49,025 bases of DNA, taken from positions 1-49,025 of the forward strand of contig JAUQOZ010000111.1 in NCBI GenBank assembly GCA_030550625.1, read 5' to 3'. Under the pieces are notes generated by a model, which saw only the letters and a program-made list of their open reading frames with translations, did not search any database and was not told where the DNA came from. Position 1 is the stretch's first letter; every line of letters starts with the position of its first letter. This DNA comes from Chloroflexota bacterium (GTDB taxonomy: Bacteria; Chloroflexota; Chloroflexia; Chloroflexales; Chloroflexaceae). The translations under genes and the position numbers were made by a program. Below, one piece after another: positions 25,001 to 43,613 of the stretch.

Positions 25001-26993
25001 TCTGGCGCGTTGGTTGGCGCAAACTGGTGATACGCTGTACAGCATCGCCTTGGCGCTGGCGCCGGACGAACGGGCAGCGCAGCGGTTGTTACGGCAATGG
25101 GTAGCCGATCTTAGCCGGTGTCCGCCTGCGAGCTGGCAATCTGATGAACTGGCGGCCCGTCTCTACCGGGTGGCAGTCGCCAACTATACCGATCGCCCGT
25201 TGGAACGGCGACCGGCGCCGGCAGCCGCGCCAGTGCTGGGGCCATTGCGGGCGATGCCGTTGCCGCAGCGGATGGCTGTGTTAGCGTATGGCGTGTTGGG
25301 GATGGATAGCGCCCGCTTGGCTAAGATCCTCGGCCAAGAGCCGGCGGATGCGATCCGGACTCTTGAGCAAGCCGTGCAAGCGTTAGCTCCTATCTCGCGC
25401 CATTCGCTGCCGGCGGAGGTGAGCAGTGATGAGTGCGCACCGGTGCGGCAAGCGTTGATTGATCCGGCCCAGCATCTCCGCGCGTTTGAACAGGTGCGGC
25501 GGCATCTGGCCGGGTGCGCGCATTGCCGAATCTTTGAGCGCGAATGGCAAGCGGCGACGCGCGAGCTAACGCTCGTTCTGCGCCGCTATGCGCAAGCTTT
25601 CCCAATGCCTGCGAAGCTGGCCGATCGGTTGCTACACGCAGCAGTGACGCCGCGTCAGCGCATCGCGACAGTTGCGCTGGCAGCGCCGGTGGTGGTGCTG
25701 GCGGCGTTTGTTGTAATCCTCATAGTGCCCGGTATGTTCAGAAATCCGGTGACAGTCGTGGCCACCGGTGCAAACGAACCGGTCGTGCGGGCAGACGATT
25801 TAGTGGCGCGGGCCTTGGCCCATGGCGGCATCCCTGAACCGGAAGGCCCGCCCGTGTGGCAGGCGCGTTACCAAACCCTCTGGTATTTTAACAACCGCAC
25901 CGTCGCCCCGTTGTATGCCGAAATCTGGCACGACCGCGACAATCCGGCCCGCCACCGCTTGCAATTGCGCCACGTTGACGGCGGCGCGCCGTATGAGTTT
26001 CAGCTCGGCGACGGCGAGCGCCGCTTGTATTACGCCCTTGACGGCGCGTATGCACCGGTGCTGTACGGCGACCTGCCGGTGCCGGCGCTGCCAAACGAAC
26101 CGGCGCTGATGGTGAGTGCGGCTGATCCCAGCCAACAGCAAGCCGCATTTGTGGCCCGTCTTACCAGCGGGCCATGGCATATCCCGCCAAATTACTTGCA
26201 CCAAGCTGCGGCAGCGTCTGATCTCCGCTTGCTGGGCCGGCAACGGATCGGTGAGCGGTTGGCGTATATCGTCAGCTTTCGCGGGATCAGTCCGGTTGAT
26301 GTTCCCGCAGATGTTGCCGAACCGGTAACGGTGCTGATGGCGATTGGCGAGACCGATGGTCACGTGCTGAATATCACCGAGTTAATTGGGCCTCCCGGCG
26401 GAACCCAAACCAGCCGGGTGGTGTGGCGGTTGGTCGAATTTAATTGGCTTGTCACCGGCGAGCAGATCCGCGATGCCTTCACCTTCGAGCGAGCATGGAA
26501 CGGGCGGGCGGAAATATCTGGCATGCCGGTGCAGCCGCTCGTCGATCCGGCATGGCCGCTGGTGCGGTTGGGCAACGTGATCGCACCAAGCGAGATCGGG
26601 CGAGTCAGCGACTCGCTCGTATTGCCGGCGACTATCCCTGATGGGATCGAACGGGCGGTCTTCTTAAGCTGGCGTGGTGCACGCATCAATGGCGCCATCT
26701 ATACTGGCGCCGGCAAGCAATTGATTTTCACCTTTGACCGGCTGCCGGGTATCGATAGCGCCATTCCAACCGACGTGATCGGCCCATGGCGGGTACGGAT
26801 CGAGCCAGTGCGCGGGCAACGGTATCGGGTCGCGATTGAGACGAATGCCAACCGGCGGGGGAGTAATGTGCGGCTTGCGCTCGAAGCCACCGGTTTCACC
26901 CTTGCTGAGGTGCGTGCGATCATAGAGTCGTTGCGCCCGCTCTACAGCATTGATTTGCGTGCGCAGGCGGCATGGTTTATCCCCAGACGTTAA
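24987..26993 (+). CDS. Membrane protein fusing a sigma-like region to a zinc anti-sigma domain and a large outer domain
   Basis: 668 residues from the ATG at 24987. Residues 10-65 resemble ECF region 2 (TGDTLYSIALALAPDERAAQ, like LYRLALRLTGD). Residues 88-132 resemble region 4 (MPLPQRMAVLAYGVLGMDSA, then RLAKILGQEPADAIRTLEQA), though degenerate. Residues 173-180 are HLAGCAHC, the HxxxCxxC zinc motif of ZAS anti-sigma factors. A transmembrane helix lies at about 228-249. About 420 residues outside are beta rich with paired-strand motifs (RYQTLWYFNNRTVAPLYAEI). The fusion reading is by motif pattern, not alignment. It probably senses the envelope state. Confidence 0.65.
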   Translation: MIEANLARWLAQTGDTLYSIALALAPDERAAQRLLRQWVADLSRCPPASWQSDELAARLYRVAVANYTDRPLERRPAPAAAPVLGPLRAMPLPQRMAVLAYGVLGMDSARLAKILGQEPADAIRTLEQAVQALAPISRHSLPAEVSSDECAPVRQALIDPAQHLRAFEQVRRHLAGCAHCRIFEREWQAATRELTLVLRRYAQAFPMPAKLADRLLHAAVTPRQRIATVALAAPVVVLAAFVVILIVPGMFRNPVTVVATGANEPVVRADDLVARALAHGGIPEPEGPPVWQARYQTLWYFNNRTVAPLYAEIWHDRDNPARHRLQLRHVDGGAPYEFQLGDGERRLYYALDGAYAPVLYGDLPVPALPNEPALMVSAADPSQQQAAFVARLTSGPWHIPPNYLHQAAAASDLRLLGRQRIGERLAYIVSFRGISPVDVPADVAEPVTVLMAIGETDGHVLNITELIGPPGGTQTSRVVWRLVEFNWLVTGEQIRDAFTFERAWNGRAEISGMPVQPLVDPAWPLVRLGNVIAPSEIGRVSDSLVLPATIPDGIERAVFLSWRGARINGAIYTGAGKQLIFTFDRLPGIDSAIPTDVIGPWRVRIEPVRGQRYRVAIETNANRRGSNVRLALEATGFTLAEVRAIIESLRPLYSIDLRAQAAWFIPRR

Positions 26994-27012
26994 CAATCTG
27001 GACAAATGTAGA

Positions 27013-27024
27013 ACAAACGTTTGT
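27013..27024. promoter_or_regulatory. Perfect palindrome ACAAACGTTTGT, near-LexA box, upstream of the DarT-macro gene
   Basis: With its left flank this reads GAACAAACGTTTGT. It matches the Gram-positive LexA box pattern CGAACRNRYGTTYC except at the two outermost positions. It overlaps the -35 box of the candidate promoter, where a repressor would block polymerase. LexA control is inference; no lexA gene is in the window. Confidence 0.4.
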
Positions 27025-27049
27025 ATTTTGTAGTTGCTCGTGTTATGAT
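27021..27049 (+). promoter_or_regulatory. Candidate promoter of the DarT-macro gene
   Basis: TTGTAT (27021-27026) and TATGAT (27044-27049) are 17 nt apart, 44 nt before the ATG at 27093. The palindrome at 27013-27024 covers the -35 box. Confidence 0.45.
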
Positions 27050-27092
27050 TGAGACGAGTGCATAAGGCGGAAGCATAGCAGCGGATCGGACG

Positions 27093-28274
27093 ATGGCCAA
27101 AACCAAGCTGAACATACGCAGCCTCTTTTATATCACCCATTGCGACAATCTTCCTTCGATCATACAGCGCGGTATCTTGTCACATGCTCAAGTCGAGGCT
27201 AACGGACTGTCACCGAAACCGGTTTATGATAAGAACATTGTTTTGCGCCGGCGCGACCGACGCACGCCTGACGGTCGCAGCTTGTGGGAATTTGCCAATC
27301 TCTACTTTCAGCCGCGGAATCCGATGCTGTATCGTGTCGTTCAGGAAGCGGGCATCAGGAACGTTGTTGTGATTGGCGTTGATCCAAAAGTGATGGAAAT
27401 ACCGGGATGCTTTGTTTCTGATGGTAATGCCGCTCATTCATTGTCAAACATTTGGCCGTTGGCCGAGGGATTGCAACATCTGGCTGCATTGAGAAAGATT
27501 TGGGATAAGGAATGGTGGCGAGAAGCTGATGGATCAAAGCGCCAGATCATGGCTGAATTGTTAGTGCCGGATGGTATACCACCAGCGTATTTGCAAACAA
27601 TCTATACCGCTGACCACAAAACAGTTGACTACGTTCGCCAACTATTGCCTGATGCGCCAATTGATGTTGTTCCTGAGCCAAATATGTTTTTTCAACCGGA
27701 TTCCTCAAAGCGACTTACCGATACGATCACGTTGGTGGATGGCGATCTGTTCTTTTCTCGTCAGCAAACTCTGACCATTAGCGTCAATACGGTGGGAGTG
27801 ATGGGCAAAGGGTTAGCGTCGCGGGCCAAGTATCAATTTCCTGATGTGTATGTGGTGTATCAAGATGCTTGCCGGAGCAAGCAGTTGCAATTGGGCAAAC
27901 CATATCTCTACCGGCGAGAAGCCTTCATCGATGAAGAGTTAGCTGATGAGCCGGCTTCGCTTGCCAATCCCAACGCCAACAAGTGGTTTTTGCTATTTGC
28001 CACAAAACGGCATTGGCGCGAACCGTCCGATCTTAAAGGCATCGAGCAGGGCTTGCAATGGTTGCAAGATCACTATCAGTCAGAAGGTATTCGCTCATTA
28101 GCGATGCCGGCGCTTGGCTGCGGCTTGGGCGGATTGGATTGGCGTGATGTGGGGCCGCTGATGTGCCGTTATCTTGCCCCGCTGTCGATTCCAGTCGCGA
28201 TCTATTTGCCAAGAGAGAAACCGATTGCCCCAGAGTTGCTAACCCCAGAATTTTTACTTGACAAAGCTATGTAG
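27093..28274 (+). CDS. DarT-type DNA ADP-ribosyltransferase fused to a DarG-like macrodomain
   Basis: 393 residues. Residues 5-205 match DarT (DUF4433): FYITHCDNLPSIIQRGIL with His16, an Arg-rich loop at 52-57, ANLYFQPRNPMLYRV (68-82), SDGNAAH (109-115), and RQIMAELLVPDGIPP with the likely catalytic Glu155. DarT ADP-ribosylates thymidine in single-stranded DNA and blocks replication. Residues 211-375 are a macrodomain of the DarG/TARG1 class: VDGDLFFS, SVNTVGVMGKGLASRAK, FATKRHWREPSDL with the probable catalytic Lys305, and PALGCGLGGLDW. DarG removes the modification. Normally toxin and antitoxin are separate genes; here they are one chain without DarG's C-terminal domain. Both active sites look intact. 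Confidence 0.85.
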   Translation: MAKTKLNIRSLFYITHCDNLPSIIQRGILSHAQVEANGLSPKPVYDKNIVLRRRDRRTPDGRSLWEFANLYFQPRNPMLYRVVQEAGIRNVVVIGVDPKVMEIPGCFVSDGNAAHSLSNIWPLAEGLQHLAALRKIWDKEWWREADGSKRQIMAELLVPDGIPPAYLQTIYTADHKTVDYVRQLLPDAPIDVVPEPNMFFQPDSSKRLTDTITLVDGDLFFSRQQTLTISVNTVGVMGKGLASRAKYQFPDVYVVYQDACRSKQLQLGKPYLYRREAFIDEELADEPASLANPNANKWFLLFATKRHWREPSDLKGIEQGLQWLQDHYQSEGIRSLAMPALGCGLGGLDWRDVGPLMCRYLAPLSIPVAIYLPREKPIAPELLTPEFLLDKAM

Positions 28275-28282
28275 GCTTTGTC
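28260..28282 (+). terminator. Hairpin enclosing the stop codon of the DarT-macro gene
   Basis: GACAAAGC (28260-28267) and GCTTTGTC (28275-28282) pair perfectly. The 7-nt loop TATGTAG contains the TAG stop. No T run follows. Confidence 0.5.
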
Positions 28283-28356
28283 ATTGGGGTAAGCAAATGA
28301 GTGAAAATAGCGGTTTATCGCCACCACTGCCTGCATGTACGCGCGTTCCCAACTCG

Positions 28357-28365
28357 TGGTATACT
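28357..28365 (+). promoter_or_regulatory. Extended -10 TGGTATACT before the photolyase operon
   Basis: Identical to the elements at 3278 and 23751, 30 nt before the ATG at 28395. It probably drives the whole run of genes to mutM. Confidence 0.5.
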
Positions 28366-28394
28366 CGAAAGAGAATCTTAACGACGAACCTACA

Positions 28395-29210
28395 ATGCAG
28401 CTTCGTACCGATCTAACAACTCGCGCTGAGCAGGTGGCGTATCTCGCCGGCGCGCTCGACGGCTTGTACGCTGGCCCGGCGACGCCTTCGCCAATCCGCG
28501 GCGGGAGGCGGGCAGCGTTACGCCGGCTGCGCGCGTTTGATGCGCGCGGCTATGCCCGCACCCGGAACGATGTCGCGAAACGCGGCGTTTCCGCCCTCTC
28601 GCCATACCTGCGCCACGGGGTGCTCACGCTGGCCGAGGTGCGCGATTCGATCCTGACCCGGTTTGGCTATACGCCTGATACCGAAAAATTCGTCAATGAG
28701 CTGGCATGGCGTGCATTCTGGCAACTGGTGTATGCCCAGCTCGGCGACCGGATCCAGCACGATCTTGAGCCGGCCAAGCATCGTTCCCGCGCGCCGCGCC
28801 GCCAGTTGCCGCCAGAGGTGGCAGCGGCCAGCACTGGTCTCGTGTGTATCGACGAGGCGTTGCGCGAGCTGTACACGACCGGCTATATGCACAACCATGC
28901 CCGCATGTGGGTGGCCGCCTATCTGCAACACTGGCTCGGCGTGGATTGGCGCGAGGGAGCTGACCTCTTCTACCGCCACCTGCTCGATGGTGATCCGGCC
29001 TCGAACAGCTTGTCGTGGCAGTGGGTCGGCAGCACCTTCAGTCACAAACCGTATATCTTTAACCGCCAAAATGTCGAACGGTTCAGCGGGGGCGCGTTTT
29101 GTGCGCGTTGTCCCCTTGCCGCCGGCGGTTGCCCGTTCGACGATAGCTACGAGAATCTGGCGCTGCGCCTGTTTGGCGTGTCACTAGCGGAACTTGAGGG
29201 GCGGCGATGA
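28395..29210 (+). CDS. Photolyase/cryptochrome FAD-binding half, stand-alone
   Basis: 271 residues that align by eye with only the C-terminal FAD domain of photolyases. GVSALSPYLRHGVL (64-77) and NELAWRAFWQ (101-110, like NELIWREFY) are present. So are TGYMHNHARMWVAAYLQHWL (162-181), DWREG (184-188) and DGDPASNSLSWQWVGST (198-214), which holds the FAD-binding Asp/Asn and electron-transfer Trp region. The TGYPIVD DNA/FAD motif is altered to TGLVCIDEA. Cys151, Cys236, Cys239 and Cys246 (CARCPLAAGGCPF) resemble the four-cysteine [4Fe-4S] pattern of bacterial FeS-photolyases, with a shorter last gap. The missing antenna domain is encoded by the next gene, which overlaps by ATGA. Confidence 0.82.
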   Translation: MQLRTDLTTRAEQVAYLAGALDGLYAGPATPSPIRGGRRAALRRLRAFDARGYARTRNDVAKRGVSALSPYLRHGVLTLAEVRDSILTRFGYTPDTEKFVNELAWRAFWQLVYAQLGDRIQHDLEPAKHRSRAPRRQLPPEVAAASTGLVCIDEALRELYTTGYMHNHARMWVAAYLQHWLGVDWREGADLFYRHLLDGDPASNSLSWQWVGSTFSHKPYIFNRQNVERFSGGAFCARCPLAAGGCPFDDSYENLALRLFGVSLAELEGRR

Positions 29211-29680
29211 GCGGCGCGATCGTGTGGCTCCACGGCGATAGTCTTAGCCCAACCGATCCAGCGCTGCTGGCCAACCCGGTTGCACCGGCGATCTTCGTGT
29301 TTGACGAGCCGTTCTTGGCGGCGGCCCAACTCAGCTTCAAGCGGCTCTTCTTTCTGTACGAATGCGCGCTGGAGGCGATCGCCGGGAGGACGGGCAGCAT
29401 CCGGCGCGGGGTGGTGGTGGAGGAAGTGCGGGCATTTGCCGCCGAGCAGCAGGCGATGGCGGTGCATGTGACGGCGAGCGTGGCGCCGCGTTTCCGGCAG
29501 TATGTGGCCGAATTGCGCGCCGCCGGGCTGCAGGTGGTGGTTCATGAACCGCCAGCGTTTGTGACGTGGCGCGGCGAGCCGCCGCGCCGGTTTAGCGCCT
29601 TCTGGCGGCGGGTCGCCGCTGAGGCGCTGCGCCCAACCGGAACTGGGCCGGTCTTGCCTGCTGAGCACGATGTGGAGTAG
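29207..29680 (+). CDS. Photolyase-like N-terminal alpha/beta domain, stand-alone
   Basis: 157 residues, starting inside the stop of the FAD-domain gene (ATGA). The opening AIVWLHGDSLSPTDPALL matches the start of photolyases (xxVWFRRDLRLxDNPAL) and is followed by AIFVFDEPFL, SFKRLFFLYECALEAI, a VVVEEV strand and QVVVHEPPAF. The Rossmann-like domain normally binds the antenna chromophore at the N terminus of one polypeptide. Here it is a separate protein encoded after the FAD domain. It lacks motifs for a named chromophore. The two products probably assemble into one enzyme, which is inference. Confidence 0.72.
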   Translation: MSGAIVWLHGDSLSPTDPALLANPVAPAIFVFDEPFLAAAQLSFKRLFFLYECALEAIAGRTGSIRRGVVVEEVRAFAAEQQAMAVHVTASVAPRFRQYVAELRAAGLQVVVHEPPAFVTWRGEPPRRFSAFWRRVAAEALRPTGTGPVLPAEHDVE

Positions 29681-41151: not shown

Positions 41152-42768
41152 TCATAAATCCAGCCGCACCTTGGCGCCGAAGTTCTTCTTTTCCTTGCTG
41201 GGGAAATACGACAGGCACGCCGCATCAAGCAGATCAGGGCTCAGAGTCGGCGTTTCCATATTGTAGCGGGCGATTGCTATTAACTGATCGAGAATATCGC
41301 GCGGCTGGCACATACGGAATGGCCGTTGATCAGGCTTAAACCACTTCGCGATCAGATAATCGATGCTGCGATCATCGTATGGTACCTTGCGCACTTTACA
41401 CATAATCTTCCAAATCTCGCGCCACTGCTCTTCGGTGGGGTCAATCACCTCAATCTTAAACTTAATCCGGCGCAAGAGCGCATCATCACCCAAATCCTTG
41501 GGGTCAAGGTTGGTACTGAACATAATCAACTGGTCAAACGGAATCTGGATCTTTTGCCCAGAGACCGTATTGAGAAAGTCATACCGCTTTTCAAGCGGCA
41601 CGATCCAGCGGTTGAGCAGGTCAAACACCCGCACCTGCTGGCGGCCAAAGTCGTCGATCAGGAAGATGCCGCAGTTGGCTTTCATCTGGAACGGCGCTTC
41701 ATAGACCTTTGAGGTCGGGTTGTAGACCAGATTAAGCTGTTCGAGCGTCAACTCACCGCCAACGATGACCACCGGGCGGCTAATCCGGATCCAGCGCCGG
41801 TCGTACTCGATCTCTTCGGGCAATGGGCGGCGGGGTGGTTCGTGAATGACCGAGTCATACATCTTGATCACCGCGCCATCGGCGTAGACGGCGTAGGGAA
41901 TGAAGATGTCATCACCCATCAGATAGGTAATCCGCTCAGCGATGGTGGTTTTGCCGTTGCCGGGATAGCCAAAGAGCATCACCGACGAACCGGAGTTGAC
42001 GGCGGGGCCGACCATATTCAAGATCGACTCGTCCATCACCAGTCCTTCAAAGGCATCGCGGATATTGCGGCGGGTGACTTTGACATTCTTCACCGTCTGC
42101 GCCTTGACCGACTCGATCCACTTGTCGAGCGGCACCGGGCAGACGCCGACATATTGCACTTTTTCCATCGCCGCTTGGGCGGCGGTTTGGCCGCGCGGTG
42201 TCAAAACATATTCGTAGTTAATATCGCCAAACCCGCGCTGGCCGACAATATCGATCTGTTCGACATTGCGCAGATCGATGATAATCTGCTCAATCACGCG
42301 ATAAAACAACCCCATCGCCTCAGCCAGCTCCATGCCGGTCGCGCGGCCTTTGTTGTAGAGAATGCGCAAAAATTGCTCGGTAAGGAAGGTGCGGTTAAGG
42401 CCGGTCTCATCAATCGTGGCCGGCTGCGGCGGCAGAAACGCATTATTCAGTTGGGGCCGGGCTTCATCATCAGAGGGCGGCGGGTCGCCGAGCATGCGCA
42501 GCGCAGCCACATTCTCGCCGCGAGCGCGTGCTTCGCTAATCAAGCGTTCGAGGTCGGTCACATGCATCTGCAAGTGCAGCAGCGCGTCAATGTCATTTTT
42601 GGCTTGCGCTTCTTTCAAGCAGGCATAGACAGCGCGGGCGACCGTGTATTTGACGCCATCGATATAGAGGTGGTGGCAATACTCTTGATTGCGCACGTAA
42701 CAATCACGGGGATGGCTCTTGCGGGCCAACATTTCCTCGTATGAGCGTTGATCAAGCAGATACCGCAT
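41152..42768 (-). CDS. AAA+ ATPase with N-terminal winged-helix-like region, unknown role
   Basis: 538 residues from the ATG at 42768 with AAGGAG upstream. Residues 1-115 are helical and charged, with a Cys/His/Tyr-rich start (RDCYVRNQEYCHHLY). About 125-225 looks like a winged helix (TEQFLRILYNKGRATGMELA, VLTPRG). The ATPase core (about 245-450) has Walker A GYPGNGKTTIAERI, Walker B GIFLIDDFGRQ, sensor 1 IMFSTNLDP and RRIKF as likely arginine finger. A C-terminal lid (RMCQPRDILDQLI) completes it. It resembles MoxR-like ATPases but has no recognised partner. It diverges from the cell-wall gene cluster. Confidence 0.8.
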   Translation of the reverse strand: MRYLLDQRSYEEMLARKSHPRDCYVRNQEYCHHLYIDGVKYTVARAVYACLKEAQAKNDIDALLHLQMHVTDLERLISEARARGENVAALRMLGDPPPSDDEARPQLNNAFLPPQPATIDETGLNRTFLTEQFLRILYNKGRATGMELAEAMGLFYRVIEQIIIDLRNVEQIDIVGQRGFGDINYEYVLTPRGQTAAQAAMEKVQYVGVCPVPLDKWIESVKAQTVKNVKVTRRNIRDAFEGLVMDESILNMVGPAVNSGSSVMLFGYPGNGKTTIAERITYLMGDDIFIPYAVYADGAVIKMYDSVIHEPPRRPLPEEIEYDRRWIRISRPVVIVGGELTLEQLNLVYNPTSKVYEAPFQMKANCGIFLIDDFGRQQVRVFDLLNRWIVPLEKRYDFLNTVSGQKIQIPFDQLIMFSTNLDPKDLGDDALLRRIKFKIEVIDPTEEQWREIWKIMCKVRKVPYDDRSIDYLIAKWFKPDQRPFRMCQPRDILDQLIAIARYNMETPTLSPDLLDAACLSYFPSKEKKNFGAKVRLDL

Positions 42769-42951
42769 AGCACTCCTTATCGATGAAAATAACTTATGGG
42801 AAACTGCCGTTGCGCGGGTGGAGACAAGCGCCGGCGCTGGCGCGAGCACGCAATTACTAATTGTTCATATTGTACCTGCCCGGCGAACCATCGTACTACC
42901 AGCGTTCAGTCTCTATAGCGGATTTTCTCGATCACAATGCAAAAAAAACGC

Positions 42952-42980: not shown

Positions 42981-42982
42981 TA

Positions 42983-42994
42983 GAACACTTGTTC
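42983..42994. promoter_or_regulatory. LexA-like palindrome GAACACTTGTTC at the transcription start
   Basis: The form is GAAC-N4-GTTC, the core of Gram-positive LexA boxes, placed right after the -10 box, a classical repressor position. A direct repeat TGTTCGA...TGTTCGA (42990-43004) overlaps it. A regulatory role is inferred. Confidence 0.4.
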
Positions 42995-43106
42995 GACCTG
43001 TTCGAGAAAAAAGAGTTCATTAAACCGGTCATCACCGATCGGCGCCACGGGAAGAGCAGCGCGGCAGGGCAGGTCGCAATGTGACTATCGTGAAAGGAGG
43101 GCTGGC

Positions 43107-43613
43107 ATGGCGACCACCAGTCGGGAATTGCAACCGGCGCGGCGCGTAGATGCGGCTGGTCGTATCATCAAAGGGATAGTGACGGTGTTGGCAGTAGCAG
43201 CCTTGGTTGTCGTTGTGGGAACTGTCGCCGAGTTTGGCCGTATCATGATCGACGATTGGCGGTATGGGCGTCCGCGCACCACGCATCTCACCGGCTACGC
43301 GGGCTTGCCGGCGGAGCGAGCTGGCCAGCCATCGCGCTTCATTGCGATGAATCTCGACCGGCAAGTGGTGATCGTTGCCTTGCCCGGCGGCGATCCGGCC
43401 CAAGCGCAGACGTGGCAAGGCCCCTATCTGTTTGGGTTACACGAAGATCTGACGCCTGTGGTATTATCATTGGAGGATATCGATGGTGACGGTCTGGCCG
43501 ATCTGTTGGTCACCATCCACCACGAACAACTGGTCTATCTCAACCGTGATGGTACGTTTCGTTTGCCTACCCCGGAAGAGTGGCACCGGCTGGCGCAGGA
43601 GCGGAGCAAGTGA
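43107..43613 (+). CDS. Membrane-anchored protein with a DxDGDGxxD motif
   Basis: 168 residues. A single transmembrane helix lies at about 25-47 after a basic N terminus. Outside there is a beta-rich domain ending with VLSLEDIDGDGLADLLVTIH, a calcium-binding-type loop as in FG-GAP/VCBS propeller blades. Only one blade is visible, so it is not a full propeller. GAAAGGAGG precedes the ATG. Its stop overlaps the next start (GTGA), so they are coupled. Function unknown. Confidence 0.75.
   Translation: MATTSRELQPARRVDAAGRIIKGIVTVLAVAALVVVVGTVAEFGRIMIDDWRYGRPRTTHLTGYAGLPAERAGQPSRFIAMNLDRQVVIVALPGGDPAQAQTWQGPYLFGLHEDLTPVVLSLEDIDGDGLADLLVTIHHEQLVYLNRDGTFRLPTPEEWHRLAQERSK

Follow-up and report, generated by a model that had tools for sequence, protein, structure and literature searches.

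The fused gene and its product

The window, as the whole stretch of DNA analysed is called here, covers 49,025 nucleotides from a Chloroflexota bacterium and holds, at 27093-28274 of the forward strand, an open reading frame that reads through without an internal stop and is a genuine gene. Its coding features are as follows.

27093..28274, + strand, fused darT-darG gene (393 aa, ATG start, stop codon included)
27126..27692, + strand, DarT ADP-ribosyltransferase domain, residues 12-200 (PF14487; same span in the genome search)
27555..27557, + strand, codon of the DarT catalytic Glu155 (invariant in 22 fused proteins; Ala in the 7OMU chain)
27726..28223, + strand, DarG/TARG1-type macrodomain, residues 212-377, with no C-terminal DarG domain after it (PADLOC DarG)
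28005..28007, + strand, codon of Lys305, the predicted macrodomain catalytic lysine (aligned with Thermus aquaticus DarG Lys80)

An initial annotation, made from the sequence alone, took the product to be a DarT toxin and a DarG macrodomain joined in one chain, and profile searches with Pfam and PADLOC confirm this. The first ~205 residues match DarT strongly, residues 12-200 covering the whole of PF14487 (positions 1-201 of 201, E 1.9e-43), and the PADLOC DarT profile matches at E 2e-33. Further on, residues 304-354 match PF01661 (Macro, E 7.2e-07) and residues 212-377 match the PADLOC DarG profile (E 5.8e-48). Of the 329 positions in the DarG profile, this last match covers 2-149 only; the C-terminal half of DarG is thus absent from the window protein, as had been claimed. 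The active-site motifs named in that annotation are likewise in place: FYITH (residues 12-16), NLYFQPRN (69-76) and Glu155 in DarT, and NTVGVMGKG (232-240) and TKRHW (304-308), with Lys305, in the macrodomain. TKRHW aligns with TKKHW of T. aquaticus DarG, whose Lys80 has a catalytic role (PMC8501950). In the alignment of 22 intact fused proteins, window included, R53, E155, N232, G235, M237, G238 and K305 are invariant. A profile search of the window's genome (4.74 Mb in 395 contigs, of which C279 carries the window) found no second DarT.

Correspondence to a solved fusion and to other systems

The joining of DarT and DarG is not new, and the earlier treatment of the architecture as something unfamiliar was overstated, because the structure of a fused DarTG has been available since 2021 (PDB 7OMU, released that year under the title "Thermosipho africanus DarTG in complex with ADP-ribose"). 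Like the window protein, the Thermosipho protein consists of DarT and then a macrodomain in a single chain, without the C-terminal DarG domain; these statements are drawn from the PDB title and the sequence. The structure is presumably the one described by Schuller et al. (2021, Nature), and no discussion of the fused form was found in the literature searched. With phmmer, window residues 8-390 align to residues 23-405 of 7OMU (E 1.4e-143). An AF2 model of the full chain, a check suggested along with the initial annotation (pLDDT 90.9, pTM 0.87), superposes on 7OMU as a single unit, with 375 of 376 residues aligned, rmsd 1.6, Z 47.9 and 55% of the structurally aligned residues identical; the two proteins therefore arrange their domains alike. 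In place of the catalytic Glu155, the 7OMU chain has Ala, probably through engineering, since Glu occupies this position in the Thermosipho protein found in nature (L008).

The two-gene DarTG2 systems of T. aquaticus, M. tuberculosis and EPEC share with the window the DarT fold, the DarG macrodomain, and the catalytic Glu and Lys (window DarT half against Thermus DarT 7OMV, Z 22.9; macrodomain against T. aquaticus DarG 5M3E, Z 23.4). They are, however, encoded by separate genes, and the C-terminal domain of their DarG additionally sequesters DarT, neither of which holds for the window protein. DarTG1 (E. coli C7 DarT1 and the NADAR antitoxin DarG1) has the DarT fold in common with the window (8BAQ, Z 16.9), but its antitoxin is a NADAR domain acting on guanine instead of a macrodomain. 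Human TARG1 (C6orf130) resembles the second half in macrodomain fold and catalytic lysine (Z about 17.5), although it is a stand-alone eukaryotic hydrolase. In CapRel-type phage sensors, toxin and antitoxin are also fused in one chain, but their domains and target are unrelated to those of the window, and the likeness is one of principle only.

The fused lineage

Apart from the window protein, the 21 other distinct intact fused proteins in the alignment are 50-77% identical to it, and the homologues come mostly from Chloroflexota and also from Thermotogota, Acidobacteriota, Cyanobacteriota, and Candidatus Sumerlaeota. By sequence comparison, the single-chain architecture recurs in five phyla, far above chance. 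The relatives are single chains themselves rather than pairs of genes split by a frameshift, and their recurrence across many independent genomes rules out a frameshift or assembly artefact. In the order to which the window's genome belongs, 9 of 82 genomes carry an intact fused gene and two (G012 and G024) a broken one. All fused homologues stop soon after the macrodomain, the C-terminal DarG domain being absent throughout; in two-gene systems of Chloroflexota, a DarT of about 215 aa is directly followed by a DarG of about 355 aa that has this domain.

The trees of the two halves keep the fused proteins together. The fused DarT halves form one clade (support 99/99) in a tree that includes two-gene DarT, the fused macrodomains form another (95/97), and each half of the window protein falls inside the fused lineage, apart from two-gene DarTG. 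The only row labelled 'split' within the fused DarT clade is L013, whose chain is cut by a contig end. An AU test against a single fused clade (p 0.005) was discarded as an artefact, given that the truncated L013 carried the label 'split' yet nests among the fused proteins. The fusion probably arose once, with the C-terminal domain lost or lacking, and later spread between phyla.

Several variants were seen along the way. In an Acidobacteria MAG (L005), a stand-alone DarT (653-1291, PADLOC E 7e-34) immediately precedes a fused DarTG (1359-2525), which might serve as antitoxin for its free neighbour. L064 (2612-3220, genome G049) is a stand-alone macrodomain that lacks the C-terminal domain and groups in the tree as sister to the fused ones; its 4.2-kb contig has no DarT. 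It could be a remnant or an intermediate, or else a free hydrolase that acts against DarT. The fused DarTs of L021, L006 and L013 have YIAP where most others have YITH, so that the motif histidine (His16 in the window) is lost; L021 and L006 retain the catalytic Glu, and substrate use is possibly altered in proteins of this type.

Selection, turnover, and genomic setting

In close pairs with unsaturated dS, dN/dS ranges from 0.06 to 0.15 in DarT and from 0.06 to 0.09 in the macrodomain, values indicating that both halves are maintained by purifying selection; the macrodomain half is the more conserved of the two. The gene and its promoter come or go as a unit, as seen in the following stretch.

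26974..28347, + strand, stretch replaced by about 49 bp in G008, holding promoter and gene

G008 is the closest genome, its flanks being 92-94% similar; the 1374 bp of the window correspond there to about 49 bp. G012 and G010, both more distant, retain the gene at the same site, and the simplest reading of the empty site is loss. The G012 copy has a TAG at Trp65 and a Cys at Gly235, a position otherwise invariant in the macrodomain, and the G024 copy is frameshifted. Two further genomes of the genus, G007 and G009, have copies at other loci that are 57-59% identical, which suggests separate acquisition. The pattern of gain and loss is that of a dispensable cassette.

This record bears on two other explanations. 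The first is that the protein is a regulatory or housekeeping DNA modification enzyme, neither defence nor toxin, which controls replication through reversible ADP-ribosylation. Writer and eraser do sit in one chain, and replication origins have been given as the site of action of M. tuberculosis DarT (PMC8501950, PMC10789625), but an enzyme of this kind is hard to reconcile with close relatives that lack an intact gene (the empty site of G008, the nonsense codon and G235C of G012, the frameshifts of G024) or with a patchy distribution over five phyla and different loci within one genus, and we regard it as quite improbable. The second, an addiction module of the classical kind that happens to be fused, would account for toxin and antitoxin domains occurring together and for the cassette-like presence and absence. 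It is extremely improbable, given that the two domains are made and lost jointly, so that differential decay cannot drive post-segregational killing, and that the clean empty site of G008 shows loss to be tolerated. Moreover, no close copy of the fused gene was found in plasmid, phage or viral-contig collections; among the best matches listed, plasmid, phage and viral relatives are 26-42% identical and, where annotated, two-gene or macrodomain-only.

Stand-alone DarG-like macrodomains, about 38% identical to that of the window, are encoded by E. coli phages (phiEco32, SU10, and others), where a role in counter-defence against DarT is plausible. No defence genes were found among the neighbours of the fused gene in the window. 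At 28335-29680, two adjoining genes encode a photolyase FAD-binding domain and a weakly matching photolyase N-terminal domain in reversed order, a pair resembling a split photolyase/cryptochrome. In L004 (3310-6708), the fused darTG lies between genes for MmeI-type and Eco57I-type methyltransferases, as if inserted into a restriction-modification operon, and the neighbours in L051, judged by sequence, are similar to those of L004.

A LexA-like box in the promoter

The promoter of the window's gene contains an element that is new here, the fusion itself being known.

27009..27024, + strand, LexA-like box TAGAACAAACGTTTGT, 68 bases upstream of the start codon (genus lexA/recA operator matrix)
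27021..27026, + strand, weak -35 TTGTAT, overlapping the LexA-like box, 17 nt before TATGAT (read by eye, tentative)
27044..27049, + strand, possible -10 TATGAT (read by eye, tentative)

A sigma-70 consensus scan of the darTG promoter gave nothing above threshold. The scoring matrix for the box was built solely from lexA and recA operators of the genus: in the 8 genomes searched, lexA promoters hold GAACAAACGTAC-type and GAACACTTGTTT boxes (one genome yielded just one), and recA promoters hold conserved GTACACTTGTGC and GCACATATGTAC boxes. With this matrix, the window's darTG box scores 14.8 and ranks 3 of about 49,000 window positions, and the boxes in the orthologous promoters score 12.2 (G010), 19.2 (G012) and 12.5 (G069, of another family). 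Against an unbiased background, in which 94,279 positions yielded 5 sites (one being the darTG box of G010), a 200-nt promoter should hold about 0.01 sites scoring at least 12.2; this background was used because those containing motif-selected loci are biased upward. Among the four orthologous promoters (window, G010, G012, and G069), the 12-bp core of the box is 9-11/12 identical, against 24-44% for the flanks. The lexA promoter of G069 holds AAGAACAAGCGTG, close to the darTG box AAGAACAGACGTTC of the same genome.

The generic SOS-box pattern GAACRNRYGTTY proved too weak as a genome-wide predictor (23 hits, against 15 for the reversed control), its other genome hits not being obvious SOS genes; the weight therefore lies only with the operator matrix and the conservation among orthologues. 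The best LexA-like site in the window is TAGAACACTTGTTCGA at 42981-42996 (score 20.3), between an ATPase-like gene (41152-42849, - strand) and a gene for a 168-aa putative membrane protein (43107-43613, + strand), and marks a candidate SOS-regulated gene.

It is likely, from these predicted operators, that darTG is under LexA control in the window's clade. Checks of other fused homologues and of about 30 darT promoters from two-gene systems gave no LexA-like box scoring at least 12, and none was found upstream of the Thermosipho fused gene, unlike in the window; SOS control would thus be confined to this clade. That the box is missing from most fused homologues could also be taken to mean that it is incidental or secondary, and that the protein works in the manner of CapRel, the tethered antitoxin keeping DarT inactive and letting go of it only once a phage protein or a DNA structure is bound. 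There is precedent for toxin-antitoxins on a single chain that respond to a phage protein (see the discussion in PMC11481870), and some relatives of the window protein sit among restriction-modification genes. We nevertheless judge such a sensor unlikely: the antitoxin half is an intact hydrolase that is better conserved than the toxin half, which suggests catalysis rather than mere occlusion, and the whole chain superposes on 7OMU with no extra sensor domain.

Proposed mode of action

The reading that we favour, and consider reasonably probable, is that the gene encodes a self-limiting ssDNA ADP-ribosylation enzyme of the fused DarTG type, which in this Chloroflexus clade is switched on through LexA and the SOS response. 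The DarT domain would use NAD+ and Glu155 to transfer ADP-ribose onto ssDNA bases, most likely thymine, a specificity deduced from the antitoxin partner being a macrodomain; the tethered macrodomain would remove the modification by means of Lys305. Precedents come from EPEC, whose DarT is an ssDNA-modifying enzyme that stalls replication and increases RecA levels (PMC7003065). There, the DarG macrodomain by itself strips ADP-ribose from ssDNA and can rescue cells, which a catalytic Lys mutant fails to do, while the C-terminal domain of DarG acts separately, by sequestration (PMC7003065). On its predicted domain content, the fused lineage is left with the macrodomain mode of de-modification only. 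Because the C-terminal domain that mimics ssDNA and blocks DarT is missing, control in cis must be through hydrolysis, possibly with a contribution from domain packing.

As the initial annotation correctly held, differential decay of the antitoxin is impossible when it shares a chain with the toxin; the ratio of toxin to eraser is fixed at 1:1, and activation by antitoxin decay is thereby excluded. The switch would most likely be transcriptional, with LexA bound at 27009-27024 repressing darTG until DNA damage or phage attack leads to RecA-driven LexA cleavage and release of the gene. The ensuing burst of DarTG would mark exposed ssDNA at forks and reversibly stall replication, including that of phage, and the tethered macrodomain would limit how long the modification persists. 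A damage-triggered switch had been no more than a guess in the initial annotation, and it now gains independent support from the conserved, predicted operator. The role is probably phage defence or replication arrest, the former being suggested by two-gene DarTG (PMC11481870, PMC10789625) and by the methylase-gene neighbours in L004. More tentatively, the SOS repressor may take the place of antitoxin decay as the on/off switch within a loop in which DNA modified by DarT itself induces SOS, a positive feedback that the tethered hydrolase would keep bounded.

How DarTG is activated is an open question even in two-gene systems, and the fate of the balance between DarT and DarG during infection has not been determined (PMC11481870). 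The fused chain eliminates differential antitoxin decay from the possible answers, and the conserved LexA-like operator offers a directly testable alternative. Given that no member found has the domain that sequesters DarT, the fused lineage also constitutes a natural test of whether the macrodomain suffices as an antitoxin. If the proposal is true, LexA-gated DarTG would amount to a DNA modification response that limits itself and is gated at the level of transcription.
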